25,155 bases of DNA from a virus. A model generated the notes under the pieces. The model saw only the letters and a program-made list of their open reading frames with translations. It did no database searches and was not told the DNA's origin. Of the stretch, positions 11,963 through 24,246 are shown in pieces; the first letter of the stretch is position 1; the number at the start of each line of letters is the position of its first letter. The stretch lies in IMG/VR virus record IMGVR_UViG_3300030380_005511, positions 1 to 25,155 of that record; one strand, written 5' to 3'. The position numbers and the translations under genes are program-made.

Positions 11963-11969
11963 TTTTCTC

Positions 11970-13394: not shown

Positions 13395-13812
13395 AGCTTT
13401 CCACCCTTAATTATAGTTATTTTTTTTATTTTAGCAAGTGTTTGAAAAAAAACTAGCCTTTATTTTTCCCCCACGATGTGTGAACCATACTACAACGGCA
13501 TAGTCATTTGCAAAAGGGGGGCGTCGGCTTGCCAGTTTAAACTAATTAGCTAGCAAGTTTAAACCATGCCTTAAAAAGCAAGGGAGCATTATCAACAAAG
13601 GGAACATTGTAGAGTTTAAACCATTATATTATTTTGTTTCTAGCCCGTGCGTGCGTGCTCATGGTATCGTCTTTAAAGGCATATCACGGAGTTTAAACCG
13701 CCATTTAAATGTAATTAAAAAGTATTTATCTATATAGGTATATCTGTATAGAAGTGTTGTAAATAGAGGCTCTCGGCGATTTATATGTTTGATGTTCTTT
13801 ATTACAGAGATG
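13395..13812. promoter_or_regulatory. Non-coding region with four GTTTAAAC palindromes upstream of the late block
   Basis: About 420 bases with no convincing frame on either strand. It holds GTTTAAAC at 13535, 13557, 13614 and 13691, a density far above the rest of the genome. The first two are 22 bases apart and are bracketed by CTTGC/GCAAG. A GTGCGTGCGTGC run lies near 13650, and a CCCCC/GGGGG pair lies 13468-13520. This is the only possible leader for terL and so for late transcription. It could be a late promoter, a packaging site or a replication origin. I see no clear -35/-10 pair for the minus strand, which would fit control by a phage-encoded factor. Confidence 0.6.
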
Positions 13813-13844
13813 TAATAAAAAAGAGCGACCATTGAGACCGCTCT
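13813..13844 (-). terminator. Intrinsic terminator after the small gene at 13864
   Basis: On the minus strand, AGAGCG (13844-13839) pairs with CGCTCT (13827-13822). One GC and two GU pairs can extend it inward to nine pairs around a 5-base loop. The stem runs straight into six T residues. It would stop the SprT-gene transcript before it reaches the GTTTAAAC cluster and terL, leaving the late block under separate control. Confidence 0.75.
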
Positions 13845-13863
13845 CCTTTATGTTTAAGACTTA

Positions 13864-14103
13864 TTAAGATGTAAACGTGAGCTTGTTTATTTCTTTTATA
13901 AAGTCTGTTTCATTGTCGTATCTACTAGAGTAAACGATTTCTCCTGACTCGTCGTCATAGTTACAATCTAAATATATTACTAGTTTAAACTTAGATTCTT
14001 TTTTGTCCTCATATGTATAAATACGAGTTATTTTATCCTTGTTTATATATATATCTTTTGCTCCATCATCAAGACTTACTTTTATTTTATAAAATTTACT
14101 CAT
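13864..14103 (-). CDS. Small beta-rich protein (79 aa)
   Basis: A 79-residue protein, MSKFYKIKVSLDDGAKDIYI, then KDKITRIYTYEDKKESKFKL and VIYLDC. Five or so alternating strands suggest a small beta-barrel or SH3-like fold. I place the start at the ATG at 14103, with GGAG nine bases ahead. A longer 84-residue reading would start within that Shine-Dalgarno. A GTTTAAAC palindrome at 13983 codes Phe-Lys in the FKL segment. The gene overlaps nothing but follows the SprT gene closely. Function unknown. Confidence 0.68.
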   Translation of the reverse strand: MSKFYKIKVSLDDGAKDIYINKDKITRIYTYEDKKESKFKLVIYLDCNYDDESGEIVYSSRYDNETDFIKEINKLTFTS

Positions 14104-14107
14104 GTTT

Positions 14108-14890
14108 TTATTCTCCATTTGTTCCAGTTTTTTTGTTTAGGTTTCTTGTGTCGTCTTCGTAGCAATAAATAAGCTCGCCTAATTCCTCGCTACATGCACC
14201 ACATGAAACATTCCCGCTCCACCTATGCGAAGCCATAACATTGAAATTGCAATGCGGACATACTACCCGCACTTGCTTTTTTTTCGTTTTTCTTTTGCCG
14301 TCTTCGTTGATTTCTCCGTGCGGATAGTCTCCGAGTTCTTTAAAAATATGCCCATACATTTCATTAAAGCGACCAGTAGTAACAACAGAGCCGTCCGCAT
14401 TTACATAACTATTGTCAGGTACTGTTGCCGTGTAAGATGTTGCACTTCTACCATTAAAGCCACCTTTCAAGCCTAACAAATCGCAAGCCTTGCGAAACTG
14501 TGAGCCGTGTCCTACATCATGACCAAGACAAGAATGAATCAGCTCATGAATGAAGACTCCCATTACAGTTTCATTGTCATACTTTCCATAGTCTATTTCG
14601 ATTGTACATACTCCGTCTTCTTTTAATCTGTTGTATGAACATCGTCCAATAGTCTTCGATACTCCGTTACGACGTGGAAACATTGTAATCGAAATATCAA
14701 CCGCTCCAATAGAGTATCCTTTCTTTAAAAAGATATCTCGCAAATAAGAGTCTAAGGCATTTTTAAGCCATTGCTCTTTTGTAATGACTGGTCTCCCCGC
14801 TCTATCAAGTAAGTCCTTGTTTATTCTGAAGTCAGATAATGTAGAGTTTAAACCTACAATCTTTCTTCTTTCTTTTTTTGTTCTTAACAT
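14108..14890 (-). CDS. SprT-like zinc metalloprotease with zinc ribbon (260 aa)
   Basis: A 260-residue SprT-family protein. Residues 110-132 contain HELIH (115-119), the zinc-binding and catalytic HExxH, followed by GHDVGHGSQF, where H128 is the likely third ligand. The N-terminal part (WLKNALDSYLRDIFLKKGYS) and the CTIEIDY strand before the active site fit the SprT/Spartan fold. A C-terminal zinc ribbon follows, CPHC at 211-214 and CGAC at 230-233. Cellular relatives cut proteins crosslinked to DNA. A phage copy might clear host or replication-blocking proteins from DNA. GGAG lies nine bases before the ATG. A GTTTAAAC site (14846) codes Leu-Asn at residues 14-15. Confidence 0.85.
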   Translation of the reverse strand: MLRTKKERRKIVGLNSTLSDFRINKDLLDRAGRPVITKEQWLKNALDSYLRDIFLKKGYSIGAVDISITMFPRRNGVSKTIGRCSYNRLKEDGVCTIEIDYGKYDNETVMGVFIHELIHSCLGHDVGHGSQFRKACDLLGLKGGFNGRSATSYTATVPDNSYVNADGSVVTTGRFNEMYGHIFKELGDYPHGEINEDGKRKTKKKQVRVVCPHCNFNVMASHRWSGNVSCGACSEELGELIYCYEDDTRNLNKKTGTNGE

Positions 14891-14904
14891 TTTTATTGCT
14901 CCTT

Positions 14905-15111
14905 TTATTTAGTAATTTTATTAAAGTATCTTCTAGCCTTAGAAGAGTCTTTTTTCCATTTAATTGTTTCAGAAAGTAGAAAACTAAATAAATCATCCTT
15001 GTTAGGATATTTTTTATAATAGTCTTCAAGTTTTTTTATTGAAAAACTCATTAACATGTCTATAGTTTTTTGAGCTTTTTCGTTTTGTTCTTTTGTTCCG
15101 CCTATTACCAT
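14905..15111 (-). CDS. Small helical protein (68 aa), first gene of the SprT operon
   Basis: A 68-residue Lys-rich helical protein, MVIGGTKEQNEKAQKTIDML, then SFSIKKLEDYYKKYPNKDDL and a basic end. I choose the ATG at 15111 because GGAGCAA stands just ahead of it, the same ribosome-binding phrase used at 14890, 16364, 20207 and 20573. A longer reading from 15216 (103 residues) would put a GTTTAAAC site and the likely promoter inside the gene and has no Shine-Dalgarno. Function unknown; position as leading gene of an early operon may mean a host-takeover role. Confidence 0.65.
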   Translation of the reverse strand: MVIGGTKEQNEKAQKTIDMLMSFSIKKLEDYYKKYPNKDDLFSFLLSETIKWKKDSSKARRYFNKITK

Positions 15112-15221
15112 TTTTTGCTCCATTTGTTTAAGTTCTATAATTACTATTATATAGAGTCCTTGTAGAATATCAAGCTTTGATAAGTTTAAACTTACAAATA
15201 TATTTATTAGTATCATACATT

Positions 15222-15251
15222 AGTATATTCTAATATATTGATGTTCCACAA
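15222..15251 (-). promoter_or_regulatory. Probable promoter for the SprT operon
   Basis: On the minus strand TTGTGG (15251-15246) and TATACT (15227-15222) are separated by 18 bases, four and five matches to the sigma70 consensus. Transcription would start near 15214. A GTTTAAAC palindrome at 15184-15191 then lies about 25 bases inside the transcript, a position suited to an operator. A second -10-like TATGAT is found at 15217-15212. Confidence 0.5.
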
Positions 15252-15295
15252 TAATACGCCTAGAACGTCCATTATGGAGTTTTTGCGTTCTGTGG
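15246..15295. other. Nested inverted repeats in the divergent region
   Basis: Three nested pairings lie in 50 bases: CCAC/GTGG (15246-15249 with 15292-15295), AGAACG/CGTTCT (15262-15267 with 15286-15291), and TCCA/TGGA (15268-15271 region with 15275-15278) around a 3-base loop. They could form a hairpin in RNA of either strand or mark a protein site. The outer arm overlaps the -35 hexamer of the minus promoter, so a bound protein would affect it. The remaining DNA from 15300 to 15590 is AT-rich, and I see nothing in it beyond weak promoter-like TTGATA at 15446. Confidence 0.4.
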
Positions 15296-15620
15296 AGTAA
15301 CACATCAAGAAAGCTTGTAAAACGTCAAATATTACAAAATAGAGCCTGTTTTTTTTTGCCGATATTGTTTAAAAGTTAAACATTTTTAATTCAGATTAAT
15401 TGTAGAATGTCAATAAAAATATCTTTTATTTTTACCTTTTCAATGTTGATATTATTCAATAATAATGCTCTTATAGATTTAGTAAGAAGTTATCTTTTTA
15501 TTCGTCTGTAAGGATACACCGATAAAAAGAAACGAGGTTAAAAATTACTCGTAAGCAAGAACAGTCTTAGGACATGCGAGAAAATGACCATTTACGAGTT
15601 TAAACCAACAATTAATTAAT

Positions 15621-15640
15621 TATGTTTCACGTGAAACATA
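15621..15640. promoter_or_regulatory. Canonical bacterial parS (ParB-binding) site
   Basis: TATGTTTCACGTGAAACATA is a perfect 20-base palindrome whose inner 16 bases are TGTTTCACGTGAAACA, the exact consensus of chromosomal parS in most bacteria. ParB binds it and spreads to form the partition complex. By base composition a chance match in a window this size is very unlikely. It lies in the leader of the gene at 15650, directly touching the AGGAG ribosome-binding site and 15 bases after a GTTTAAAC palindrome (15598). No ParA or ParB gene is visible in the window, so it would use a host ParB or one encoded elsewhere in the phage. Confidence 0.85.
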
Positions 15641-15649
15641 GGAGTAATT

Positions 15650-15964
15650 ATGAACAAAGTATCAAACATTAAAAAACCTAAGACAGTAAAATATCTACGC
15701 TATGGAGGTTTAAAGCTTCTCTCTGAGAAAGCAATCAGGAAAGGATATAATAGACAGATTGAATTTAGCAACGTCAATAAAGACCTTGTTAAACATTCGG
15801 CAACGTCTGGACTATCTTTGAATGAGTATAAATTTCCTATCATCATGGAATTTGACCATAACGACGGAGAAGAACTAAGACTACAAATTGTAATTTTAGA
15901 ATCTGTCGTTTATTTGGACATTTCATATGAAGACGCAGACATGATTCACACTATGGAGGTTTAA
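15650..15964 (+). CDS. Unknown early protein behind the parS site (104 aa)
   Basis: A 104-residue protein, MNKVSNIKKPKTVKYLRYGG at the start and an acidic C terminus (VYLDISYEDADMIHTMEV). The middle has NEYKFPIIMEFDHNDGEELR, a beta-type segment. I do not recognise a family. Its AGGAG lies five bases from the ATG and abuts parS, so ParB bound to the DNA would lie within its leader. It is the first gene of a five-gene plus-strand block and is separated from the next gene by two bases. Confidence 0.75.
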   Translation: MNKVSNIKKPKTVKYLRYGGLKLLSEKAIRKGYNRQIEFSNVNKDLVKHSATSGLSLNEYKFPIIMEFDHNDGEELRLQIVILESVVYLDISYEDADMIHTMEV

Positions 15965-15966
15965 TA

Positions 15967-16317
15967 ATGAGCGAGTCTGTAAGAGACTTCTTGCTACGAG
16001 GTGAGAGAGAAGAGAGTTTCTCTCTCGCTGATGTCGTTCAACATGGTTGTATTGGAGGAACGATAAGCGAGCTTATTTATTACAGCGATACAGTCAAATT
16101 TTACGACGAGCAAGAAGACACAATATGGCAACGATTAAACGACGAAGCCGAGCAACATGGATATAATGTAATACAATACATAGCCCAATTTCACAACATA
16201 AAATCTGTATGTTCTGATATTGGGTTTAAAAACCACCTTGCTTGGTGGATTTGTGAGATGGTCGCAAATGATATAATCGAAGAAAGAGAAAACGAAAAAG
16301 ACGAGGCGAAAGCCTAG
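15967..16317 (+). CDS. DUF7222-like early protein (116 aa)
   Basis: A 116-residue acidic helical protein. VVQHGCIGGTISELIYYSDT (about 23-42) with FYDEQEDTIWQRL, then the phrase KNHLAWWICEMVANDI (about 88-103), fits a family I recall as DUF7222, found in many phages (pattern GC.GGTISELIYY.DT..FYD...DEI... then LAW...E..A..I). Function is not known to me. It ends in TAG whose last base begins a GTTTAAAC palindrome (16317-16324). It is probably translated with the preceding gene. Confidence 0.72.
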   Translation: MSESVRDFLLRGEREESFSLADVVQHGCIGGTISELIYYSDTVKFYDEQEDTIWQRLNDEAEQHGYNVIQYIAQFHNIKSVCSDIGFKNHLAWWICEMVANDIIEERENEKDEAKA

Positions 16318-16330
16318 TTTAAACTTATGA

Positions 16331-16350
16331 GCGGGCATGAAAATGCCCGC
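16331..16350 (+). promoter_or_regulatory. GAAA-tetraloop hairpin abutting a ribosome-binding site
   Basis: GCGGGCAT, loop GAAA, ATGCCCGC: a perfect 8-bp GC-rich stem with a GNRA tetraloop. The base after it begins AGGAGCAA, the Shine-Dalgarno of the gene starting at 16364. There is no T run on either strand, so it is not a terminator. It may protect the downstream mRNA end after processing, or set translation of the HTH gene. It directly follows the GTTTAAAC at 16317. Confidence 0.7.
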
Positions 16351-16363
16351 AGGAGCAAAAAAA

Positions 16364-16615
16364 ATGAAAAATAATACTTTGTATGGTTGGAATATAAAAA
16401 AACCAAAGAGTAAAATTGAAAAAGTTTTGGCTCATTTGGTAGAACATGGAAATATCGACACTTGGAAAGCTATAACAAATTATGGTGCGACAAGGCTATC
16501 TAGCATTATTTTTAACCTTAGAGTTCATTTTAAAATAATAAACAAGGTTATAAGAGATAAGCAGGACGGCAGAAAACACTATGTTTCTTATATATTAAAA
16601 GGAAAAAAGAGGTAA
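16364..16615 (+). CDS. Helix-turn-helix protein, HTH_39-like (83 aa)
   Basis: An 83-residue basic protein with a winged-helix-type domain at about 17-78: IEKVLAHLVEHGNIDTWKAI, then TNYGATRLSSIIFNLRVHFK, and a beta-wing KVIRDKQDGRKHYVSYIL. This pattern matches small phage HTH proteins of the HTH_39 kind. The start at 16364 is set by AGGAGCAA; an upstream ATG at 16337 lies inside the tetraloop hairpin and is unlikely. A DNA-binding role is likely, and it is one of two candidates in this window (with 8544-8708) for a factor that reads the GTTTAAAC sites. Confidence 0.75.
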   Translation: MKNNTLYGWNIKKPKSKIEKVLAHLVEHGNIDTWKAITNYGATRLSSIIFNLRVHFKIINKVIRDKQDGRKHYVSYILKGKKR

Positions 16616-16618
16616 AAA

Positions 16619-16786
16619 ATGGCTTTAGAAATATACGCTTTTACTTTTATCTTTGTTCTTGGTCTTTTTCTGTATGGAATGGGTATATATTTTAAAACTA
16701 TCAACGAATACGAGTTAGAGTTTTGTAGATATTTGTTATATTTACCTTTGATTTGCATAATGATAGTTGTAATAGCGAGATATTAA
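16619..16786 (+). CDS. Small two-TM membrane protein (55 aa)
   Basis: A 55-residue protein with two hydrophobic helices: IYAFTFIFVLGLFLYGMGIY at 5-24 and YLLYLPLICIMIVVIARY at 38-55, joined by a charged loop (FKTINEYELEFCR). The Shine-Dalgarno AGAGG overlaps the stop of the HTH gene, and its TAA ends one base before the next ATG. A small inner-membrane protein in an early block may alter the host envelope or exclude other phages. A holin is possible but holins are usually late. Confidence 0.75.
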   Translation: MALEIYAFTFIFVLGLFLYGMGIYFKTINEYELEFCRYLLYLPLICIMIVVIARY

Positions 16787-16787
16787 A

Positions 16788-17003
16788 ATGACTTGCGAAA
16801 ACAAAGTAATTCAAATTATAGAAAAAGGTTATGATGTAAAAGAGGTTAAAGTACCTTGTGGTAGCACAAGTATTCACGGAGACCGCTTGTTATGTGATAA
16901 ATGCTTATATGATAGAGATTTGCAAGACCGATTACGCCAACAAGACCGAAACCAAAAAGCAGATGATGATTGGTTGAGTTCTAGTGGTTGGAGTGAAATG
17001 TAA
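16788..17003 (+). CDS. Small Cys-containing protein, possible zinc-binding (71 aa)
   Basis: A 71-residue protein with Cys at positions 3, 24, 36 and 39. VPCGSTSIHGDRLLCDKCLY puts a CDKC knuckle after a single Cys, so one half of a zinc ribbon is clear and the other depends on C3, C24 or H30. The tail is Asp/Arg/Gln-rich and ends DDDWLSSSGWSEM. No named family is recognised. It follows the membrane protein gene by one base and is the last gene before the strong promoter of the putative RNA. Confidence 0.7.
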   Translation: MTCENKVIQIIEKGYDVKEVKVPCGSTSIHGDRLLCDKCLYDRDLQDRLRQQDRNQKADDDWLSSSGWSEM

Positions 17004-17081
17004 ATAAAGTAATATAGCAAGATATTAATTTGTTTGGTTTAAACTCGTAATAAAAAAATCTTATTTAGTTGAATATTATAT

Positions 17082-17110
17082 TTGACATTATGCAATAAAT
17101 TTATTATTAT
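17082..17110 (+). promoter_or_regulatory. Strong sigma70-type promoter for the putative RNA
   Basis: TTGACA at 17082-17087 and TATTAT at 17105-17110 are exactly 17 bases apart, eleven of twelve consensus bases. The start would be near 17117. A GTTTAAAC palindrome (17037-17044) lies 37 bases upstream of the -35. No protein-coding gene with a Shine-Dalgarno follows, only the GC-richer stretch. Confidence 0.8.
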
Positions 17111-17116
17111 ATATAC

Positions 17117-17412
17117 ATGCTCGAAGCTCGGTATGAGTACGCAAAACTCAAACCTCAGAAGCCAAAGAGAGTACGCTTATCGAAGGCAAAACGACAGTTC
17201 GAAATGTGGTGGCGAGGACGATGAGGTCAGGCTCTTAGAGGTGAAAGGATGATACAAAAGAGTGTAGAGACTAGACAAGGCTACTGTGCGAAATTCTTAC
17301 TGCTCTCCACAAGTAGATGTCGGCTAAGAGTGTCTTAGACAGGTTATAGGTGGATAGAGTTTAAACTCAGTTTCTACAAGTCAAAAGTCTAAGGCACTTT
17401 TTGCTTTTTAAG
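17117..17412 (+). ncRNA. Candidate non-coding RNA
   Basis: A ~300-base stretch follows the best promoter in the window and is nearly half G+C, against about a third around it, as structural RNAs are in AT-rich genomes. Local pairings include TGAGT/ACTCA (17134-17150), TCGAA/TTCGA near 17180-17206, and CTAAGA-GTG-TCTTAG (17324-17338). GAGTACGC occurs twice (17135, 17169), and a GTTTAAAC lies near the 3' end (17359). The end may be at the AAAAGT/ACTTTT hairpin and T runs at 17383-17410. Two short frames (39 and 29 codons) exist inside but lack a good ribosome-binding site and use codons unlike the neighbours. I could not match tmRNA, RNase P, 6S or a group I intron. Confidence 0.5.
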
Positions 17413-17526
17413 TTATAAAATAAAAAGCCAAAAAATAACTATTGCTGATACATAAAGAAAACTCTCTATAAATGGTGCAACAAACTTGGCTAAATCAAAA
17501 ACTTTGTCTAATATTTGGCTCATCAT
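17413..17526 (-). CDS. 37-aa single-TM membrane protein
   Basis: A 37-residue protein, MMSQILDKVFDLAKFVAPFI, followed by ESFLYVSAIVIFWLFIL. The C-terminal 20 residues form one membrane helix and the N-terminal half is amphipathic. The first ATG overlaps the stop of the upstream gene as ATGA, which supports translation. It is the last gene of the recombination block, facing the putative RNA end-on. Function unknown. Small tail-anchored proteins like this can act on the host membrane. Confidence 0.65.
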   Translation of the reverse strand: MMSQILDKVFDLAKFVAPFIESFLYVSAIVIFWLFIL

Positions 17527-17813
17527 AATAACTTTCTTTTTTCCTCTCTTTGTATTTCTGCAATCTTTTCAGGGCAACCTGTGCCATATTTTTCTTTTAT
17601 GTTGGCAATTTCTTTTTTTATGCACATTAGCCAAAGGCAATCATTCAAAGTGCAAACATTAACGTCTTCTACAATACTCAAATAATGTGAATGTAGATGC
17701 CTTAATGCTTTAATGCCAATTTGTTTACACTTCTTTTGAACCGCCTCTGCTTGCTCTTCTGAGTTCAATAACTGGGCTTGAATGTTAGAAAGCTCTCCTC
17801 TAAATTCGTTCAT
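17523..17813 (-). CDS. Small helical protein, paralogue of the gene at 22478 (96 aa)
   Basis: A 96-residue protein, mostly helical, with NDCLWLMCIKKEIANIKEKY at about 57-76. The same core, a helix ending in DC[L/V]WLM followed by a charged helix, is found in the plus-strand protein at 22478-22744, where it reads KDCVWLMVLNTEIKERQ. The segment before it also aligns (LRHLHSHYLSIVEDV against LRKHYKDINNN). So this phage has two diverged copies in separate early operons. Function unknown. Its start overlaps the upstream stop by one base and its stop overlaps the next start (ATGA). Confidence 0.75.
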   Translation of the reverse strand: MNEFRGELSNIQAQLLNSEEQAEAVQKKCKQIGIKALRHLHSHYLSIVEDVNVCTLNDCLWLMCIKKEIANIKEKYGTGCPEKIAEIQREEKRKLL

Positions 17814-18025
17814 CAGTTTATTCCTAAATAACCTAATTCGAATTCTATATGAGTAGTACCCTCTCTTTTTAGTTTATATAAACTTTCTAATTCTTTTTTA
17901 TAATATCTTGCATAACTATCTCGTTTAGTCTGACTTTTCATCATTGTTCCATAAAAAGGTATTTCTGCCATTGATATTAAATCTTCTATTTTCATTGTTT
18001 TGTTTTTCATTACGTCTATTTTCAT
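17813..18025 (-). CDS. Small charged protein (70 aa)
   Basis: A 70-residue protein, MKIDVMKNKTMKIEDLISMA, then MKSQTKRDSYARYYKKELES and a beta end THIEFELGYLGIN. I take the first ATG because it overlaps the upstream stop as ATGA; a second in-frame ATG ten codons on lacks support. No family recognised. It is part of a chain of four overlapping small genes (17523-18407). Confidence 0.65.
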   Translation of the reverse strand: MKIDVMKNKTMKIEDLISMAEIPFYGTMMKSQTKRDSYARYYKKELESLYKLKREGTTHIEFELGYLGIN

Positions 18026-18204
18026 CCTTTCATCTCCTTTATTACCTCTTCATAATGTTGTTCTTCTAAATACGTTGCTACATTTAAAGCTATTTTTACC
18101 TTGTTTTTGACAGTATTTGGCTCATATTTGTCTAACCATTGACTTATGATGTATAGAGTAGAGGCGTCTAATGTTGAATATTCTTTGATATCGCTTTTTT
18201 TCAA
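18022..18204 (-). CDS. Small acidic helical protein (60 aa)
   Basis: A 60-residue protein, MKKSDIKEYSTLDASTLYII, then SQWLDKYEPNTVKNKVKIAL and NVATYLEEQHYEEVIKEMKG. The pattern suggests three helices. It is joined to both neighbours by 4-base ATGA overlaps. No family recognised. Confidence 0.65.
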   Translation of the reverse strand: MKKSDIKEYSTLDASTLYIISQWLDKYEPNTVKNKVKIALNVATYLEEQHYEEVIKEMKG

Positions 18205-18407
18205 TTTAAAGTTCTCTCTTCATTCTCTAAAAAGCTAGCGTCAATGCCCATGTTTTCAAAGACAGTCTCTACTGCTTGCTTAGAATGGCAAAAAACATAT
18301 CTTCTTTTTGGCAAGCCTTTTATTTGGCTATGTGTAAGCCACACACAAAAGTTTGCCGAGCTATACTCATAGACTTCTTGTTTCTTAACATCAATTACAT
18401 ATATCAT
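18201..18407 (-). CDS. Small unknown protein (68 aa)
   Basis: A 68-residue protein, MIYVIDVKKQEVYEYSSANF, then CVWLTHSQIKGLPKRRYVFC and an acidic tail (NMGIDASFLENEERTLN). An initial beta hairpin followed by a helix is likely. It lies 15 bases after the coiled-coil gene at 18423. Its stop overlaps the next start (ATGA). No family recognised. Confidence 0.65.
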   Translation of the reverse strand: MIYVIDVKKQEVYEYSSANFCVWLTHSQIKGLPKRRYVFCHSKQAVETVFENMGIDASFLENEERTLN

Positions 18408-18422
18408 TTAAATAATATAACA

Positions 18423-18710
18423 TCAAAGTTCACGTTCTGCAACCTTTTTTTCAAGGTCTTTGATGTATTCTTGCTTTTTCTTATTGTAAGCTTTTTGGTA
18501 AGCTAGCCTAGTTTCTCTGTTTATTTCATATCTTTGTCTTGATTTTTCTAGCCTTTCTTTTCTTTCTTTATCTGTTTCGCTATTTCTTTTATCTCTCTGC
18601 TTTGCGAGTTTAAACTCTTTATCTTTTAAACTCATGTTGGCGTAATTATCTCTCTGTCTTTTTTTTATTTTTTCCGCATTTTTTTTATAATATTCTTCCC
18701 AATAAGTCAT
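18423..18710 (-). CDS. Highly charged coiled-coil protein (95 aa)
   Basis: A 95-residue protein made almost wholly of Lys, Arg, Glu, Asn and Tyr, for example YWEEYYKKNAEKIKKRQRDN and RETRLAYQKAYNKKKQEYIK. One long helix or coiled coil is expected. Similar Lys/Arg/Tyr helices (Y....AY...) occur beside HNH nucleases in phages, but no catalytic residues are present here. A GTTTAAAC palindrome (18608) codes Phe-Lys in KEFKLAK. A Shine-Dalgarno AGGAGAGATAT precedes the ATG. Confidence 0.68.
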   Translation of the reverse strand: MTYWEEYYKKNAEKIKKRQRDNYANMSLKDKEFKLAKQRDKRNSETDKERKERLEKSRQRYEINRETRLAYQKAYNKKKQEYIKDLEKKVAEREL

Positions 18711-18719
18711 ATATCTCTC

Positions 18720-19019
18720 CTAGAATGGTGTATCTTCATATACTTGTTTTTTTCTTGGTTTAAACTCGTTGTTTTCCTCCTTCTTTTGTATTTTGAATGT
18801 TATATATTTTTTGTTGTCTTTGTCGTTAAGCCAAAGAGATATCATCATTGGCTCTCCCGCTTTGATAGTTATATCTTCTTTGCTGATAAAGTTATTATTT
18901 TGCATAAAAGGATAAGCTTTTCCCTCTCCAAAATGTAAGCTTTGCCTTTCTTTGTAAGCAACATCTCTTGTTTTTTCAAACTTATCGTTGAAAAACAAAT
19001 TCATAAATTGAGTTTTCAT
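18720..19019 (-). CDS. Probable single-stranded DNA-binding protein (99 aa)
   Basis: A 99-residue protein: MKTQFMNLFFNDKFEKTRDV, beta-type middle (KEDITIKAGEPMMISLWLND, KKYITFKIQKKEE), a charged linker, and the end VYEDTPF. An OB-like beta core plus a disordered tail ending in acidic residues and Pro-Phe is the mark of SSB proteins, whose tip (consensus DDDIPF) binds partner enzymes. The core is shorter than in E. coli SSB. I start at 19019, where AGGAGA precedes the ATG, rather than at an ATG 15 codons upstream. A GTTTAAAC site (18758) codes Phe-Lys in EFKPRK. The gene follows an exonuclease and an annealing-protein candidate, which fits. Confidence 0.68.
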   Translation of the reverse strand: MKTQFMNLFFNDKFEKTRDVAYKERQSLHFGEGKAYPFMQNNNFISKEDITIKAGEPMMISLWLNDKDNKKYITFKIQKKEENNEFKPRKKQVYEDTPF

Positions 19020-19051
19020 CTTAATCTCCTGTTTTTTTAAATGTTCTTGTT

Positions 19052-19729
19052 TTAGCCTTCCCATATTAAATTTATACTGCCCTCTACACTTCCTTTAAAC
19101 TTTGGTTTTTCATTTAATGGCTTGTCGGACAAGTCTAATAACCTTGAAGAATATTCTTCTAAAAGCTCAGTTAAGTAATTTATAAACTCTTGGTTATAGC
19201 TAACTTCCCATATTTTTGTATAAGCTTTTGGCTTAGATATGTTAATTAAATGTGTTTTTTTAATTTCTCTGTCTATGTTTTCTTGTTTATACCACATGTT
19301 CATAACCATTTGTTGCCCATATATCTGAGGTAAATAGTGTTTTGGAAAGTCATCGAAACAAGCTTTTCCATGCTTGGTAGTTTTAACTTCCAATATACAG
19401 TCTTTATATATTCCGTCAGGTGTTGATGAAAGACTTATATTTCTTCCGTCGTCTTCTCTGCTAAACCAGTTATCTATTTGCCTAGATACTTGGTCTCCAA
19501 GTATAAAATTTGGCACTTTATTGTTTATCTTTACCCATTTGGCTATGCCGTGTTTCTCTAGCTTTTGCCCTATTTTCATAGCTTGTACTTGATACCAATT
19601 AGTAATCTCTTCTTTTTCTCCATTATAGTCGAGTTTAAACTGCTCTTCACGAGTGGGGTAATAAGTTGCAAGAGATTTGCCAAAGCAATACTTAGCAAAA
19701 TTGCTACTCCTTAAATTAAAACTATTCAT
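19052..19729 (-). CDS. YqaJ/lambda-exo-like PD-(D/E)xK exonuclease (225 aa)
   Basis: A 225-residue nuclease. STPDGIYKDCILEVKTTKHG at 102-121 contains the PD-(D/E)xK core: D105, then E114 and K116. LPQIYGQQMVM at 133-143 gives the conserved Gln after the core. An N-terminal basic segment and EKHGIAKWVKINN precede it, as in YqaJ-type viral recombinases. These enzymes chew one DNA strand 5' to 3' to make single-stranded ends for an annealing partner. The partner is likely the gene just upstream, which it overlaps by eight bases. A GTTTAAAC site (19633) codes Phe-Lys near residue 31. Confidence 0.82.
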   Translation of the reverse strand: MNSFNLRSSNFAKYCFGKSLATYYPTREEQFKLDYNGEKEEITNWYQVQAMKIGQKLEKHGIAKWVKINNKVPNFILGDQVSRQIDNWFSREDDGRNISLSSTPDGIYKDCILEVKTTKHGKACFDDFPKHYLPQIYGQQMVMNMWYKQENIDREIKKTHLINISKPKAYTKIWEVSYNQEFINYLTELLEEYSSRLLDLSDKPLNEKPKFKGSVEGSINLIWEG

Positions 19730-20207
19730 CGTCTTGTTCCATTTTATCTAATTCTGCTTTGGCTTTTGCTAACTCTTCTTTTGTTGTCATTTCAAAAGTA
19801 TCTACTTCATCTGCAAACTGCCATTTTCCCTCTTTGTCTTTTATAACATCTGATTCTGAATAAACTAATCCGCCCATATCTACTAGCTTTAAAATTACTC
19901 TGTCTTTGGCTCTTTTTTCTGCCATAGCTACAAAATAAGCTGAATTGGTATTTTTTGGGCTTGCTTCTCCATAACTAACCTCTACTCTCTCTCCGAGCTT
20001 TCCTGTGCATTTTATAACTGCTAATCTCGCCTCAGAATCTATTTCTACTACATCCATTTTTAAGTTGTTAATTGATTCCATAACCGCTATACGTTCACAC
20101 GTTGAATGGTATAAAACTGGGTTTCCATGACATGCCCAATAATGACTATCATCGAGTTTATACTTGTCGTTAAATTCTTGTTGCTCTTTTGTAAATTTAA
20201 ATTTCAT
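19722..20207 (-). CDS. Putative single-strand annealing recombinase (Rad52/ERF-type, 161 aa)
   Basis: A 161-residue protein. Residues ~45-75 have a VVEIDSEARLAVIKCTGKLG strand pair, then GEASPKNTNSAYFVAMAEKR and AKDRVILKLVDMGGLVYSES at about 81-120. A helix of the type A...AEKRA.DR.ILKL followed by G.VYSE, after a G.A loop, resembles the core of Rad52/Sak and ERF-type phage annealing proteins. The acidic C-terminal tail (AELDKMEQDDE) could bind SSB. It overlaps the YqaJ-like exonuclease, giving the usual exonuclease plus annealing pair. It carries the GGAGCAA ribosome-binding phrase and a ~200-base structured leader. Family naming is tentative. Confidence 0.62.
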   Translation of the reverse strand: MKFKFTKEQQEFNDKYKLDDSHYWACHGNPVLYHSTCERIAVMESINNLKMDVVEIDSEARLAVIKCTGKLGERVEVSYGEASPKNTNSAYFVAMAEKRAKDRVILKLVDMGGLVYSESDVIKDKEGKWQFADEVDTFEMTTKEELAKAKAELDKMEQDDE

Positions 20208-20233
20208 TGTTGCTCCATTTTTAATTAATTATT

Positions 20234-20383
20234 GGTAGATAGGGGAAAAGTGGTTCATCATAGGCGACTGCTTGGCTAACTTCGTTTCGCAATACTTGAA
20301 AGTATCTCGGATATATCCTAACCACTACTACCTAATCGCTTTTACATTCCCTCTCGGCATTTCTGCCACCAACACTATCTACC
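20234..20383 (-). ncRNA. Structured RNA or cis-regulatory leader upstream of the recombinase
   Basis: On the minus strand, GGTAGATAG (20383-20375) and CTATCTACC (20242-20234) form a perfect 9-bp closing stem around 132 bases. Inside are GGCA-GAAA-TGCC (20367-20356), a stem with a GNRA tetraloop, then GGGAA/TTCCC (20351-20347 with 20247-20243), AGTGGTT/AACCACT (20326-20320 with 20255-20249) and ATACT/AGTAT near 20292-20305, all nested. GCGA (~20336-20339) and TCGC could add a crossing pair. The tetraloop reads GAAA only on the minus strand, which favours that sense. It is GC-richer than its surroundings and ends 27 bases before the ATG at 20207, with no terminator between. It is either a riboswitch-like leader or a processed RNA. 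I recognise no known class. Confidence 0.55.
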
Positions 20384-20426
20384 TTGTAACAGGAAAACTA
20401 GCCATTAATAAACCTGTTATATTATT

Positions 20427-20455
20427 ATTAAAACATAAATTTTGAAAAAAATCAA
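20427..20455 (-). promoter_or_regulatory. Probable promoter of the recombination block
   Basis: On the minus strand TTGATT (20455-20450) and TTTAAT (20432-20427) are 17 bases apart, with four and five consensus matches. Transcription would begin near 20420. The first RNA feature is TAACAGG/CCTGTTA (20419-20413 with 20393-20387), then the closing stem of the structured RNA. Confidence 0.5.
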
Positions 20456-20474
20456 AATAATTCTTGATTTATGC

Positions 20475-20539
20475 TTGACAAGAACATATCCTAATTATCA
20501 ATAACTATCTCTCTTTATGTTTTATAAATAAAAGAGATA
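20475..20539 (+). promoter_or_regulatory. Promoter-like element and hairpin for the plus-strand block
   Basis: A perfect -35 TTGACA (20475-20480) has only a poor -10 (TCAATA at 17 bases), as in promoters that need an activator. Downstream, TATCTCT (20506-20512) pairs with AGAGATA (20533-20539), and TTTAT/ATAAA lies inside, giving a hairpin in the leader 33 bases before the ATG at 20573. It might be an operator or an mRNA 5' stem. No GTTTAAAC lies in this divergent region. Confidence 0.4.
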
Positions 20540-20572
20540 ATTATTTATAATTAATTTAAACGTGGAGCAAAT

Positions 20573-20782
20573 ATGATATACAAAATAGTAAGAAAAAGTA
20601 AATTTGATAATTATTTTTTAGAGGATTTTGCGTTCTCAACAGAAGATGAGTGCATTACTTTTATGAAAGCACTTGCACAGAACATCGTTACGGAGGGTGC
20701 TTGTTTTTATTGCGTTGCGATAGACTCCGAAAAATGTATTTCTATACAGAGAGAGAAACTAGAGCGTCCTATAGATGAGTAA
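20573..20782 (+). CDS. Small unknown early protein (69 aa)
   Basis: A 69-residue protein, MIYKIVRKSKFDNYFLEDFA, then FSTEDECITFMKALAQNIVT and a Cys-containing end (ACFYCVAIDSEKCISIQREK). A beta-helix-beta fold is likely. GGAGCAA stands six bases before the ATG. First gene of the plus-strand replication block; its end overlaps the next gene by eight bases. No family recognised. Confidence 0.7.
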   Translation: MIYKIVRKSKFDNYFLEDFAFSTEDECITFMKALAQNIVTEGACFYCVAIDSEKCISIQREKLERPIDE

Positions 20783-21095
20783 AGGTTGGACAAGGCAATG
20801 TGCGGGGCATTATTCTTATGTAATTCATAAGAGTTTTAGTAACGATATGATAATTCATATCAAAAAAACTCAACAAACTGAGCTTAATAAAAGCCGTTGG
20901 CAAGTTATGGTCAATGATACTGCGGAAGCTGACCATACAAAAATGATAGGAAGCTCAGACACTTCAAGGGGAGCTAAACTTCTAGCTCGTGAATATTTAA
21001 CCGACTTTCTGTTAGATTATGTTCAGAAACAGGTTGAATACATGGTTAGAGATATCCCAATAATAAGTGAAAAAGATGTTAGTAACTGTGGATAA
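20775..21095 (+). CDS. Unknown protein (106 aa)
   Basis: A 106-residue protein: MSKGWTRQCAGHYSYVIHKS, then a beta hairpin with NKSRWQVMVNDTAEADHTKM and a long helix GAKLLAREYLTDFLLDYVQK. A beta sheet followed by a helix, with an AD-type loop, resembles small phage proteins of unknown role. It overlaps both neighbours (8 and 20-29 bases depending on the next start). No catalytic motif is visible. Confidence 0.68.
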   Translation: MSKGWTRQCAGHYSYVIHKSFSNDMIIHIKKTQQTELNKSRWQVMVNDTAEADHTKMIGSSDTSRGAKLLAREYLTDFLLDYVQKQVEYMVRDIPIISEKDVSNCG

Positions 21096-21540
21096 AAAAG
21101 AGTTCCAAGCTTTTACTAAAATGATTGATGAAGCCTATCCGAGTCAGGCTTCATTAAACCAAGTTCAAAAAGGATTTTTTTGGCTTGCACTTAAAAATTA
21201 TAATTTAGATGAGTGTGTTTTATCGCTTTCTAATTATACAAAATACAATGAATGGAAGCCCAAAGTGTGCGACATAGTTGCAGGTTTAAACTCAACAAAC
21301 TCCCATTTAGCCAAGTTGTTTGATAGCTTTTTTACAAACAAAAAGGTCGAAGACAAAATTGCCATAAAAGTTTACAAAAACATGGGAGGTCAAAGTTTAA
21401 ACCGAACATTGCTTGAAAAAGACTACGAAGAAAAAACAAAACAATTTATAGAATTATATAATAACGAAGTATCTAGAGAAAATTATAATAAATTGCCAAA
21501 AAAGCTAAAAAGCAAATTAATTGGATTAGAGGATAATTAA
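21067..21540 (+). CDS. Putative helicase loader/replisome organiser (G39P-like, 157 aa)
   Basis: A 157-residue helical protein. FQAFTKMIDEAYP, then KGFFWLALKNYNLDECVLSL and SNYTKYNEWKPKVCDIVAGL (to about residue 75) follows the pattern of the N-terminal domain of phage helicase loaders (SPP1 G39P type): W/F..L..Y....V..AL..Y.....W.P...DI. The C terminus is Lys-rich and likely flexible. The start is either GTG at 21067 or ATG at 21076; both overlap the upstream gene and neither has a clear Shine-Dalgarno. Two GTTTAAAC sites lie inside (21284 and 21395), coding Leu-Asn in GLNS and SLNR. A helicase is not in the window. Confidence 0.55.
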   Translation: MKKMLVTVDKKEFQAFTKMIDEAYPSQASLNQVQKGFFWLALKNYNLDECVLSLSNYTKYNEWKPKVCDIVAGLNSTNSHLAKLFDSFFTNKKVEDKIAIKVYKNMGGQSLNRTLLEKDYEEKTKQFIELYNNEVSRENYNKLPKKLKSKLIGLEDN

Positions 21541-21690
21541 ATGAGCGTAATAATAGTTAAATTAGATAATGTTCATAGAGATGAACAGGAAACTCTCAAG
21601 GAATATCTTGAAAGTAAATGTTGGGATTGGAAAGAAATAGATTCAGAGAGGATAATTGAAAATGATAGACAGAACATTGAGATAAAGTAA
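21541..21690 (+). CDS. Small acidic protein (49 aa)
   Basis: A 49-residue protein, MSVIIVKLDNVHRDEQETLK, then EYLESKCWDWKEIDSERIIE. The ATG directly follows the stop of the upstream gene, with AGAGGATAA as Shine-Dalgarno, and its TAA is followed at once by the next ATG. A beta strand, helix and strand are expected. No family recognised. Confidence 0.7.
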   Translation: MSVIIVKLDNVHRDEQETLKEYLESKCWDWKEIDSERIIENDRQNIEIK

Positions 21691-21921
21691 ATGTCAAAAG
21701 GCTCGAAATCTCGCATAACTAACCAAAAAACATTTAACGAGGGGTGGGATAGAATATTTAATAAGAGTGAGGATAAAATGACTGAAGAAAATATATTAGT
21801 GAGAGTTTATAAAGATGTTGAAGTAAAGAACAATGATGATTACATAGAAAATGCCAAAGCAATAGCTACCGATTTTTGTGGCGATTTTGATGTAGAGATA
21901 TTGGAGAAAGATAATGAGTAG
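21691..21921 (+). CDS. Two-part small protein with a probable internal start (76 aa)
   Basis: A 76-residue frame whose first 29 residues, MSKGSKSRITNQKTFNEGWD plus RIFNKSEDK, look like a complete small phage protein (MSKGSK.R.....F...WD.IF.K). Residue 30 is a Met (21778) with GAGG and AAA just ahead of it, a good ribosome-binding site. From it a 47-residue protein MTEENILVRVYKDVEVKNND would be read in the same frame. So this is either a fusion of two neighbouring genes that lost the stop between them, or a gene with a nested product. The end overlaps the next gene by eight bases. Function unknown. Confidence 0.68.
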   Translation: MSKGSKSRITNQKTFNEGWDRIFNKSEDKMTEENILVRVYKDVEVKNNDDYIENAKAIATDFCGDFDVEILEKDNE

Positions 21922-22135
21922 TATGACAGGCGAGTGGTGTTGCACAGAATGTGGCTCATACAATGCCTATCAAGAGACATTTAGTGATGATGAAGTAGGG
22001 CATATTATGGGTTGTGAGGATTGTGGCTACTATGATGTATACAGGGAAGATAGCGAAACAGGGCAAGTAATAGAAGAATATCAAGGGCATGAACACAGTT
22101 ATGCTAAAGAAAATAAGAGGAAAAAAAATGCTTAG
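21914..22135 (+). CDS. Zinc-ribbon protein (73 aa)
   Basis: A 73-residue acidic protein with CTEC at about 10-13 and CEDC at about 34-37, spaced as a four-Cys zinc ribbon: GEWCCTECGSYNAYQETFSD, then HIMGCEDCGYYDVYREDSET. The C terminus is charged, with His-Glu-His and a basic tail. Such ribbons may bind nucleic acid or protein. The preceding gene overlaps it by eight bases, and it overlaps the next by eight. No specific family. Confidence 0.72.
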   Translation: MSSMTGEWCCTECGSYNAYQETFSDDEVGHIMGCEDCGYYDVYREDSETGQVIEEYQGHEHSYAKENKRKKNA

Positions 22136-22481
22136 TTTAGGCGATGAATTATTAGAACGGGCGGTAGAAAAAGTATCAAAATATGGTGAAGAGTTGGCTC
22201 ATTGGGAGAGTTTATACGAGCAGTTAAAAACAGAAATGAAATCTCGCATAGATTTAAAATATCTTGAGCTTATGCAAGAAAAAATGACACAAAGAGAGAG
22301 GGAAGCAAGAGCAAATTCCAACAAAGAAGTTCTTGATTTCATCCCTAAAATAGCAGAAGCTAAAAAAAAGTATATTACTTTAAGACATAAGATAAAAAGT
22401 GCAGAATTGTATTGCGATTTATTCAGAACATGCTCGTCAAACAAAAGAGCAGAGCAACAAATGTATAGAGATTTGACATGA
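22128..22481 (+). CDS. Coiled-coil protein (117 aa)
   Basis: A 117-residue protein, almost all helix: LGDELLERAVEKVSKYGEEL, then LYEQLKTEMKSRIDLKYLEL and QREREARANSNKEVLDFIPK, ending KSAELYCDLFRTCSSNKRAE. The last part (AEAKKKY..LRHKIKSAELYCDLFRT.SSN.RAE) is a pattern common in small phage replication-region proteins of unknown role. AGAGG lies nine bases before the ATG at 22128; an earlier ATG at 22089 has no support. It overlaps the next gene by ATGATG. Confidence 0.7.
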   Translation: MLSLGDELLERAVEKVSKYGEELAHWESLYEQLKTEMKSRIDLKYLELMQEKMTQREREARANSNKEVLDFIPKIAEAKKKYITLRHKIKSAELYCDLFRTCSSNKRAEQQMYRDLT

Positions 22482-22744
22482 TGTATGGAGATAAACCAAA
22501 TAATTACGAAATCAAAGATAACCCTCAGTTCGTGTCTAAAGTTAAGAATTATTGCAAAGATGTGCCTAAGTCAAGACTTAAAACTTTGAGGAAGCATTAT
22601 AAAGACATTAATAACAATTTTCTTGCTACATTTAAAGATTGTGTTTGGCTAATGGTTTTGAATACAGAAATAAAAGAAAGGCAAAATGCAGATGAATGGA
22701 GGGAAAACAAATATGAAAACAATAAAATTACAAGACGACCATAG
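22478..22744 (+). CDS. Small protein, paralogue of the gene at 17523 (88 aa)
   Basis: An 88-residue protein with LRKHYKDINNNFLATFKDCV and WLMVLNTEIKERQNADEW at about 36-73. The DCVWLM core and the helices around it match the minus-strand protein at 17523-17813. The C terminus is basic (ENNKITRRP). The start overlaps the upstream stop; its end overlaps the next gene by 32 bases in another frame. Function unknown. Confidence 0.72.
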   Translation: MMYGDKPNNYEIKDNPQFVSKVKNYCKDVPKSRLKTLRKHYKDINNNFLATFKDCVWLMVLNTEIKERQNADEWRENKYENNKITRRP

Positions 22745-22895
22745 ATATAAAACATATTATTCTCTTGGGAGAGATAAAGGTTTAAACTCCCAAGATTCTC
22801 ATAAATATGCAAAACAATGTGTTTTTTATGATAAACAGGAAGACATATTTATGGCTAAATTTTCTAAAAAATTAGATGGCAAAACCGCCGACTAA
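22713..22895 (+). CDS. Small basic protein (60 aa)
   Basis: A 60-residue protein, MKTIKLQDDHRYKTYYSLGR, then DKGLNSQDSHKYAKQCVFYD and FMAKFSKKLDGKTAD. I choose the ATG at 22713 because GGAGGG stands nine bases ahead. A GTTTAAAC palindrome (22780) codes Leu-Asn in the GLNS segment, the same four residues coded at the sites 14846 and 21284 in unrelated proteins. It overlaps the upstream gene by 32 bases and the Ref-like gene by 20. No family recognised. Confidence 0.65.
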   Translation: MKTIKLQDDHRYKTYYSLGRDKGLNSQDSHKYAKQCVFYDKQEDIFMAKFSKKLDGKTAD

Positions 22896-23151
22896 AGAAA
22901 CAAAGCTGATGTATGAAAAAGCGGTTAATTATGGGTGCATTGTTTGTAAAATTAAATATGCAGTTTATACTGAACCATGTATACATCATCTAACAGGAGC
23001 GGGTATGGGTAAAAAAAGCGAAGATATTATACCTTTATGTCATTATCACCATCAAGGAAAAGAAGGTATACATCATATTGGTACAAAGACATGGGAAAAA
23101 AAATTTGGCTCACAAAAGGATTTGCATAAACATTTTTTATCTTCGATATGA
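22876..23151 (+). CDS. Ref-like RecA-dependent HNH nuclease (91 aa)
   Basis: A 91-residue protein with a metal-bound HNH fold: CIVC at 21-24, EPCIHHLTGAGMGKKSEDII with HH at 37-38, PLCHYHH with C55 and HH at 58-59, then GIHHIGTKTWEKKFGSQ. The order CxxC, HHxxGxGMxxKS.D, IPLCxxHHxGxxGIH, WE..FGSQ is that of the phage P1 Ref family, which cuts DNA at a RecA-made displacement loop. P1 Ref is longer (about 186 residues) with a basic N-terminal arm, which is absent here. Its stop overlaps the next start (ATGA). It probably acts with the recombination genes on the other strand. Confidence 0.8.
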   Translation: MAKPPTKETKLMYEKAVNYGCIVCKIKYAVYTEPCIHHLTGAGMGKKSEDIIPLCHYHHQGKEGIHHIGTKTWEKKFGSQKDLHKHFLSSI

Positions 23152-23687
23152 AAGCAGAACTCTTAAGTTTACTAACAGCAAAAACATCTAATTTTGAACT
23201 ATCGTCAAAAAATCATGATGCAATTACATCAGAAGATATTGCTCATTACTTAGGCACTAAAAAACTTAATTCAGAAGAATATGATATTTTAATGGCAAAA
23301 TATTGCGACAATGAATATGCGAGAGAAGTCTTACGAGACAATATATTCATTAAAGCATTTGATATATTTGTTAAAAATAAAAATATACAAAAAAATGTAA
23401 AAAAAATATTAATAAAAAATTTTACAAATCTTGCAATAAAAGAAGTTATTGATACTACTTGTATATTTTGCAATGGCAAAGGAAAGATAACAGATAAAAA
23501 TTATATAAAGATGTGTGTGCATTGTGAAGGCACAGGACAATTTATATATGATGATAATAATAGACCGCAAATATCAGGCATAAAAAGCAACGTCTACAAT
23601 AAATATAAAAAACTTTATTACGAACTATTAAACTATGTAAAAGAGGTAGAAATATCAGCTTTATCCAAAATTGGTGATGAAAGTTAA
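23148..23687 (+). CDS. Zinc-finger protein, possible Q-type antiterminator (179 aa)
   Basis: A 179-residue protein. Residues 100-132 contain two DnaJ-type zinc knuckles, CIFCNGKGKI (C105, C108) and CVHCEGTGQF (C123, C126), inside a mainly helical Lys-rich protein. Phage antiterminators of the lambda-type Q group often have such a CxxCxGxG pair near the middle. The N-terminal half (EDIAHYLGTKKLNSEEYDIL) is of the kind seen in those proteins. It is the last gene of the plus block, as Q is in lambdoid phages, and would act on a late promoter. A simple DNA- or RNA-binding role is also possible. Confidence 0.55.
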   Translation: MKAELLSLLTAKTSNFELSSKNHDAITSEDIAHYLGTKKLNSEEYDILMAKYCDNEYAREVLRDNIFIKAFDIFVKNKNIQKNVKKILIKNFTNLAIKEVIDTTCIFCNGKGKITDKNYIKMCVHCEGTGQFIYDDNNRPQISGIKSNVYNKYKKLYYELLNYVKEVEISALSKIGDES

Positions 23688-23751
23688 AAAAAAACGTCCT
23701 TAAATGCCTCAAAAAAGGGTTGAAACGATTTGGCTCATAGTCAAGTATGCC

Positions 23752-24246
23752 TTAATTTATTAAACGCTTCTCGTCCTTTGTATCGTCTTTATTATGGTTT
23801 TTTATTTCTTCATCATCAGAATCAGACTGAATTAACGCTAATTTTTCTTTAAACCCTGGTATTTTGTCTGAAAGCTCAATAAGTTCGTTTATTAACTCTT
23901 CATCGCTTCTTTCTGCAACATCATCATAACTAATATTTATATTTTGATTGTTGAAGCCACCCATTTCTAAAATAGTTTTTGCACAGTTTAAACTAACAGC
24001 AGAACTATCATCATAAAGAAGTTGTTTCAGTCTAGCTATTGTTGGACCTGCAAAATTTGTTAATGTTTCTTGTGCTCTTTTTGTTATATCTGCTTGTAAT
24101 TTTTGTTTTAGATATCTTCCCATCTCATTGTGGTTATTTTTCCATCCTGCTTTTTTTGCAGATGCTCCTGCATTACCCGCAGTTTCACCCTCTGTAAAAT
24201 ATTCTATAAAAAGTTCTTCACTTTCTCTATCTATTTTTTTTGGCAT
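23752..24246 (-). CDS. terS: Probable terminase small subunit (164 aa)
   Basis: A 164-residue protein. The N terminus, ESEELFIEYFTEGETAGNAG then ASAKKAGWKNNHNEMGRYLK, is the HTH expected of small terminases, which recognise the viral packaging site. A helix (ADITKRAQETLTNFAGPTIA) and RLKQLLYDDSSAVSLNCAKT oligomerisation segment follow. The acidic C terminus (QSDSDDEEIKNHNKDDTKDE) would bind the large subunit. A GTTTAAAC palindrome (23986) codes Leu-Asn in SLNC. It is 10 kb from terL and not in the same transcript. GGGAGA lies six bases before the ATG. Confidence 0.7.
   Translation of the reverse strand: MPKKIDRESEELFIEYFTEGETAGNAGASAKKAGWKNNHNEMGRYLKQKLQADITKRAQETLTNFAGPTIARLKQLLYDDSSAVSLNCAKTILEMGGFNNQNINISYDDVAERSDEELINELIELSDKIPGFKEKLALIQSDSDDEEIKNHNKDDTKDEKRLIN

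Follow-up and report, generated by a model that had tools for sequence, protein, structure and literature searches.

A dispersed palindrome in the early half of a viral genome piece and its probable pairing with an SprT-like protein

The palindrome and the SprT-like gene of the window

The virus record IMGVR_UViG_3300030380_005511 of IMG/VR (25,155 nucleotides, analysed in full and called the window below) contains a virion half at positions 1-13394, with terL, the portal gene and other virion genes on the minus strand, and an early half in which the 8-bp palindrome GTTTAAAC is scattered over genes and intergenic regions and in which a gene for an SprT-like protein is located. The palindrome is present in 18 copies (first start 13535, last 23993), compared with a mean of 1.01 and a maximum of 5 in 100 dinucleotide shuffles, and none is found in the virion half, which is bounded by the terL start at 13394. 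The flanking bases fit RGTTTAAACY at all 18 sites (A..T at 8, A..C at 6, G..T at 4 and G..C at none), and GTTTAAAC is the top 8-bp palindrome of the window, followed by AATTAATT with 9 copies. The copy number, the coordinates and the 10-base palindrome with a purine before and a pyrimidine after, as given in a preliminary description of this DNA, are thereby confirmed. The window is the entire record and probably a fragment; the restriction of the sites to the non-virion half is valid for this 25-kb piece alone.

Non-coding DNA makes up only ~18% of the early half, yet eight of the 18 sites are intergenic, while one lies across a stop codon and nine lie within genes on both strands (no strand is assigned to the sites themselves). 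Four intergenic sites are clustered upstream of terL, at 13534..13543 (AGTTTAAACT) and at 13556..13565, 13613..13622 and 13690..13699 (each AGTTTAAACC). The following two are coding, one at 13982..13991 (AGTTTAAACT) in the open reading frame (ORF) 13864-14118 and one at 14845..14854 (AGTTTAAACC) in the SprT-like gene, ~37 bp past its start codon. Site 7 (15183..15192, AGTTTAAACT) is intergenic and placed just upstream of a putative promoter of the SprT operon, a consensus-like TTGATA-16-TATAAT on the minus strand that was read by eye. Further on, an intergenic site precedes ORF 15650-15964 (15597..15606, AGTTTAAACC), one site covers the stop of ORF 15967-16317 upstream of ORF 16337-16615 (16316..16325, AGTTTAAACT), and two more are intergenic (17036..17045, GGTTTAAACT; 17358..17367, AGTTTAAACT). 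The remaining sites are coding and lie in ORF 18423-18710 (18607..18616, AGTTTAAACT), ORF 18720-19064 (18757..18766, GGTTTAAACT), the RecE/YqaJ-type exonuclease ORF 19052-19729 (19632..19641, AGTTTAAACT), the helicase-loader-like ORF 21067-21540 (21283..21292, GGTTTAAACT; 21394..21403, AGTTTAAACC), ORF 22686-22895 (22779..22788, GGTTTAAACT) and ORF 23752-24246, TerS-like by position only (23985..23994, AGTTTAAACT). Gaps between sites range from 14 bp to 1.6 kb and thus lack the regularity of clustered regularly interspaced short palindromic repeats (CRISPR), which had already been set aside on the same ground.

The candidate reader of these sites, a 260-aa SprT-like protein, is encoded at 14108..14890 on the minus strand and was singled out by family matches, association tests and alignment. 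It matches Pfam PF10263 with 26.9 bits (curated cut-off 25.6; E 4.6e-6) and phrog_6361 with E 1.8e-22, and it combines the zincin motif HELIH, the linker KKKQVR and a C-terminal zinc ribbon (CPHC ... CGAC). The C-x2-C ... C-x2-C ribbon is shared with most relatives and lost in those of phages CN1 and Psa21-HRN. Residues H115, E116 and H119 are invariant in an alignment of 20 diverse SprT-like sequences, and HExxH is intact in 80 of 80 viral relatives, 80 of 80 bacterial relatives and all isolates read, including one odd pattern match (L327; L-numbers denote loci of this analysis), which also reads HELIH. The model of the window protein, built from 12 sequences, was poor (pLDDT, the predicted local distance difference test score, 67), and its structure search gave no match. 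The relative encoded by L302 was modelled at pLDDT 88.8 as a zincin-like core and a separate small ribbon, with a flexible linker at residues 144-149; its best structural matches in the PDB had E>0.3 and were mostly other zincins, and the PDB sequence search returned 0 matches.

Co-occurrence of SprT-like genes and dispersed words in unrelated phages

A tblastn search detected SprT-like proteins in at least 163 annotated phage records, and they are also encoded by several hundred viral contigs. In a blind test based on 80 viral loci picked by the SprT protein alone, 77 were enriched in GTTTAAAC or in the nearly identical GTTTACAC at P<1e-3, a locus count that overstates independence, with P values that are not independent, as many of the loci are akin; the total was 489 GTTTAAAC versus 16.2 expected. 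The association was also met from the side of the DNA. A general scan for paired words returned mostly chance pairs, yet surfaced L139, L167/L171 and L204; brought in by the DNA word alone, each of them encodes an SprT-like protein.

Among isolates, GTTTAAAC occurs 34 times in the Methylophilales phage Venkman (1.67 expected), 20 times in the Dinoroseobacter phage R26L (0.02), 17 times in R5C (0.04), 16 times in the Pseudanabaena phage Pan1 (0.02), 8 times in the Acinetobacter phage Alexa (0.96) and 7 times in the Burkholderia phage Mica (0.10). All occurrences of TTTAAA in the R26L and Pan1 genomes fall within GTTTAAAC sites. The word of the actinophages is GTTTACAC, with 43 copies in the Streptomyces phage Microdon (0.05 expected), 25 in Sue2 (0.11), 23 in UtzChips (0.04) and 16 in Floof, and Bacteriophage 4A has 13; it is the most enriched 8-mer in all five, and one or other of the two words is often the most over-represented 8-mer in site-bearing isolates. 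GC-rich palindromes (e.g., CGAGCTCG), first met in UtzChips and Quenya, were attributed to codon composition and dropped once GTTTACAC appeared. The enrichment is weak in ep3 (4 copies, 0.9 expected), and Quenya, CN1 and Psa21-HRN encode SprT while both words are absent.

The hosts of the site-bearing isolates belong to Proteobacteria and Actinobacteria and include a Pseudanabaena culture, and the isolates themselves span Streptomyces, Arthrobacter/Microbacterium, Jilinvirus-type, Nanhaivirus and Methylophilales phages, with no other family common to all. When the proteins of 26 site-bearing and other genomes were compared, the SprT-like family was the single one common to the site-bearing ones (20-22 of 25), and the next real family reached 7 and was also present in site-less relatives. 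The presence of many copies of nearly the same word in unrelated SprT-bearing viruses suggests that the protein recognises the DNA of its own virus. The SprT-like protein 14108-14890 is most likely the reader of the sites in the window; this candidate, the change of the word between relatives and the spread of the system over unrelated phages had all been missed by the preliminary description.

SprT-like genes are common also in Sphingomonadales contigs (among L372-L449), most of which carry GTTTAAAC in the gene at +308, where it probably encodes a conserved Phe-Lys. This bacterial set, mostly Sphingomonads, was rejected as independent support, as the contigs are homologous and the word keeps a fixed in-gene place. 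An exception in the set is L403, a 17.6-kb contig of a beta-proteobacterial metagenome-assembled genome, in which 26 GTTTAAAC lie by the SprT-like gene, about every 300 bp on one side. As a separate observation, R26L and R5C encode genes for queuosine/7-deazaguanine synthesis (QueC/D/E, GTP cyclohydrolase), which suggests modified DNA in phages with dispersed GTTTAAAC.

Changes of the word among relatives of the window

The relatives of the window were sampled as 80 loci with related TerL proteins; the early genes of the window, used as probes for close relatives, found none. Most of the TerL relatives are without GTTTAAAC, but a search for over-represented palindromes revealed 10-15 copies of TGTTAACA in the same region of L052, L053, L058 and L071. 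These sites have symmetric arms, of the form AGTCA-N10-TGTTAACA-N10-TGACT in L052 and TTTAAA-N8-TGTTAACA-N8-TTTAAA in L053 and L058, so that the outer recognition changes between relatives around a constant core. Since relatives carry a different word in the same region, what they share is the system rather than the word. Multi-copy palindromes, either GTTTAAAC or TGTTAACA with its arms, are present in the TerL relatives that encode an SprT-like protein, whereas the SprT-negative relatives (n=48, 281 kb) show 3 GTTTAAAC against 8.5 expected. Related phages with no enrichment at aligned positions had been named in the preliminary description as evidence that would speak against it; taken literally, the SprT-negative relatives are such phages, but the SprT-positive ones are not, and this contrast is central to the finding. 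L077 and L081 show an enrichment of TAGCTA ahead of terL (17 and 22 copies, P ~2e-9), possibly as a further word of this type; the pieces examined of these two loci gave no SprT-like gene.

In related genomes of ~69-91% identity, about half of the alignable sites are kept at 8 of 8 bases and the others are gained or lost. The sites are under purifying selection and turn over at the same time. The pattern that the preliminary description had proposed to look for, conserved sites amid drifting flanks, is thus seen for about half of the sites in alignable relatives, and its view of a DNA word that is itself selected and is most likely a protein-binding site gains support. Its interpretation stood in that respect and found no support in the helix-turn-helix (HTH) proteins that it named as readers. 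The winged-helix (HTH_39) ORF 16337-16615, which corresponds to the candidate at 16364, is also present in L036, L039, L041, L048, L050 and L054, none of which showed such a palindrome, and the candidate at 8544 is a 54-aa ORF with only a marginal match to a regulator.

The preliminary description also considered a self/host mark, in which GTTTAAAC would be kept for a phage methylase or nuclease. GTTTAAAC is indeed the recognition sequence of PmeI, and a DNA methyltransferase gene is present in Venkman. In the window, however, no methylase was seen, and no methylase or nuclease common to the site-bearing genomes was found; moreover, the word becomes GTTTACAC or TGTTAACA in other SprT phages, and a mark would not need the placement at promoters and start codons described below. 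We consider this explanation very improbable.

A second gene of the window tracks the palindromes within its lineage. It is located at 18423..18710 on the minus strand and encodes a basic, coiled-coil protein of 95 aa with the look of a basic leucine zipper (bZIP), found only in palindrome-bearing relatives and possibly a partner of the SprT-like protein or a lineage-specific reader. Multi-copy TGTTAACA or GTTTAAAC is present in 12 of the 13 further loci with this protein, and the thirteenth (L208) has three TGTTAACA. Dimers of the bZIP type bind palindromes, which would fit a reader of this kind. Of the two tracking genes, however, only the SprT-like one extends to unrelated site-rich phages: the 95-aa protein has 0 matches among annotated phages, although Venkman, R26L, Microdon and others have sites together with SprT, so it was rejected as a universal reader. 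As a lineage gene it may also be passive. That this protein instead of SprT binds the palindrome in the lineage of the window seems quite unlikely.

The form of the word varies together with the C-terminal part of the SprT-like protein. Most of these proteins have KKQ[ST]TR or KKQGTR between the zincin domain and the zinc ribbon, directly before the latter, and the isolates whose proteins are without the KKQxTR linker (CN1, Psa21-HRN and Quenya) are the same three in which the word is absent. Phages with KKQ[ST]TR favour Y..R flanks (420 of 460, 31 of 34 and 51 of 53 sites in three groups); in the window, where the linker is KKKQVR, the flanks are reversed, being R..Y at all 18 sites, and in the SprT of the TGTTAACA relatives the linker is lost. 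In CN1 and Psa21-HRN, AAGAAGTA/TACTTCTT is enriched (15 and 14 copies, ~0.6 expected), with one copy just upstream of the ribbon-less SprT gene; this is perhaps their own word or a promoter element.

The covariation of the word with the SprT C-terminus also bears on the idea that a third protein, host-encoded or other, reads the sites and that SprT is merely one of the genes it regulates. SprT is often near a site, and its binding there is something we infer. Against such a reader stand hosts as varied as Streptomyces, Arthrobacter, E. coli, Burkholderia, Methylophilales and Dinoroseobacter. The protein comparison provided no second common family, and the sites differ between SprT-positive and SprT-negative relatives of the window. 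We regard such a third protein as unlikely.

Placement of the sites and the proposed role of the SprT-like protein

The positions of the sites relative to genes are often precise. Six phages of the Jilinvirus type have one site just a few bases past a -10-like box and 16-21 bp ahead of the SprT start. In Sue2, six promoters consist of a TATACT- or TAGACT-like box followed immediately by GTTTACAC, 27-31 nt before the start codon, and two further sites adjoin the ATG directly. Six genes of Venkman show the arrangement GGAG-N-GTTTAAAC-ATG or similar, in which the site fills the gap between the Shine-Dalgarno sequence and the start codon. Venkman, a complete genome with a related portal, has 32 of its 34 copies before position 19,000. 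The confinement to the non-virion half noted in the preliminary description is therefore observed in the window piece and recurs as a bias in Venkman, but it does not extend to several other phages, which have sites over the whole genome. In Sue2 and UtzChips about half of the sites lie within genes.

On these grounds, we propose that the 18 palindromes form a set of binding sites for the virus's own SprT-like protein, which would act through them as a dispersed network of operators and roadblocks; with the identity of the reader included, we hold this to be probable, though by no means secure. The protein would grip the site by its basic C-terminal linker (mostly KKQ[ST]TR, here KKKQVR) together with the zinc ribbon, and, since the site is palindromic, would probably do so as a dimer. 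Bound at many places, it would most likely regulate phage transcription, as an operator-bound factor at sites that overlap promoters or start codons (in some phages also the promoter of its own gene) and as a roadblock at sites within genes. Since the zincin domain is intact, the cycle probably includes a proteolytic step, directed at the protein itself or at something on the DNA.

The nearest rival of the regulator reading gives proteolysis the leading part. In many unrelated phages, the SprT-like protein could be a DNA-activated metalloprotease whose zinc ribbon reads a palindrome of 8-10 bp present at scattered positions, which would limit proteolysis to proteins that sit on the genome of its own phage; evenly spaced sites would barcode the phage DNA with docking places for the protease, which would clear host proteins (silencers, restriction or repair enzymes and crosslinked proteins) as well as roadblocks, and sites at promoters and start codons would be simply the cheapest locations. 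SPRTN acts on DNA-protein crosslinks as a DNA-dependent protease (PMC5127644, PMC5128726), and the spacing of sites is evener than random (P<0.003) in Microdon (coefficient of variation 0.54), R26L (0.37) and Pan1 (0.49). This spacing, the invariant catalytic motif and the presence of the system in R5C, which was reported to be lytic (PMC5454422), favour a protease addressed to phage DNA. However, the virion half is almost bare of sites in the window and in Venkman, the repeated exact layouts of -10 box and site, or of Shine-Dalgarno sequence, site and ATG, look regulatory, and proteolysis is itself putative. We give the DNA-addressed protease a real but distinctly smaller chance, both as a mechanism and in the choice of targets outlined here. 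The placement at promoters and start codons, the intergenic preference and the early-half bias of the window and Venkman favour the dispersed regulator.

Several observations weigh against the regulator reading or its generality. In Microdon, R26L and Pan1, the sites run through coding DNA at even intervals, which exceeds the needs of promoter control, and the reported lytic growth of R5C means that lysogenic silencing cannot be the general purpose. In the blind set, only 14 of 78 loci have a site in the 150 bp ahead of the SprT start, versus 7.3 expected, which does not support a universal autoregulation of SprT. The residue between Q and T of the linker (S/T versus G) does not fully predict GTTTAAAC versus GTTTACAC in these loci, whose kinship was noted above. 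L190 has 10 copies and no SprT in the piece of genome examined, and PPpW-3 has 2 copies (0.09 expected) with no SprT found. Finally, Foldseek gave no significant match of the SprT-like models to the PDB, so that no mode of DNA binding can be transferred from a solved structure.

Comparison with known systems

The closest resemblance is to the operator/stoperator systems of Cluster A mycobacteriophages (L5, TipsytheTRex) and of Streptomyces phage R4, in which a short word is present in many copies, at promoters and elsewhere, and its specificity shifts between relatives (PMC9283540, PMC10276819). A dispersed word far above chance is found here too, and it overlaps early or repressor promoters, namely the SprT promoters of Jilinvirus-type phages and the promoters of Sue2. 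In the known systems, however, the repressor has DNA-binding domains of the HTH type and binds as a monomer to an asymmetric 13-mer, whereas the candidate reader here is a zincin with a zinc ribbon and the site is palindromic or nearly so. It is not oriented with transcription (GTTTACAC of Microdon points 21 times one way and 22 times the other). Moreover, the stoperators are located in promoters and short intergenic spaces of temperate phages, while here half of the sites are in genes and the phages include at least one lytic member. With its different reader fold and site symmetry, the present system falls outside the operator/stoperator group.

The SAS/ESAS elements (start-associated sequences and their extended form) of Cluster K mycobacteriophages are likewise restricted to the non-structural half and placed at start codons, and SprT genes have been reported in these phages (PMC3203893, PMC11373665). 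SAS (GGGATAGGAGCCC, 13 bp) is nonetheless asymmetric, includes the Shine-Dalgarno sequence and has no known reader (PMC3203893). Cluster K phages are absent among the SprT matches listed. The SprT/SPRTN metallopeptidases share the order of HExxH zincin and Cys-rich zinc ribbon, and the function of SPRTN is linked to DNA (PMC5127644). The antirestriction proteins of the ArdC type also combine an SprT-like metalloprotease domain with a DNA-binding part and are carried on mobile DNA. ArdC has an N-terminal domain that binds single-stranded DNA and is not known to have dispersed double-stranded sites. We know of no SprT protein for which sequence-specific binding to a fixed 8-bp word has been described, and the open-access literature yielded no paper tying SprT to an operator or to GTTTAAAC/GTTTACAC.

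The pairing of SprT with a dispersed word is widespread and apparently undescribed. "SprT-like protease" is a common annotation in phages, without a known role, and it now has a specific and testable partner word, often in many copies across the genome, in viruses whose hosts range from Streptomyces to marine methylotrophs. If the SprT-like protein reads the word, it would represent a new class of sequence-specific phage DNA-binding proteins, and protein and sites together would probably be a new type of system for dispersed control or DNA protection. A recognition code is at hand in the linker and the word that covaries with it, and the pairing is open to immediate test in the laboratory E. 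coli phages ep3 and HeidiAbel_Bas97.

Other observations

The pattern scans also returned palindromes that are unrelated to SprT as far as tested: GCGATCGC, present six times in L183, and TCAATTGA, present ten times in L123 inside a longer repeat. In the window, the gene at 18720-19064, situated between the exonuclease gene and the gene of the bZIP-like protein, encodes a protein whose EDTPF end resembles the acidic tail of single-strand DNA-binding (SSB) proteins; SprT and SSB genes are adjacent in several phages of the Jilinvirus type. The protein encoded at 23148-23687 combines a match to Q-like antitermination proteins (phrog_127, E 7e-7) with a CxxC zinc motif.

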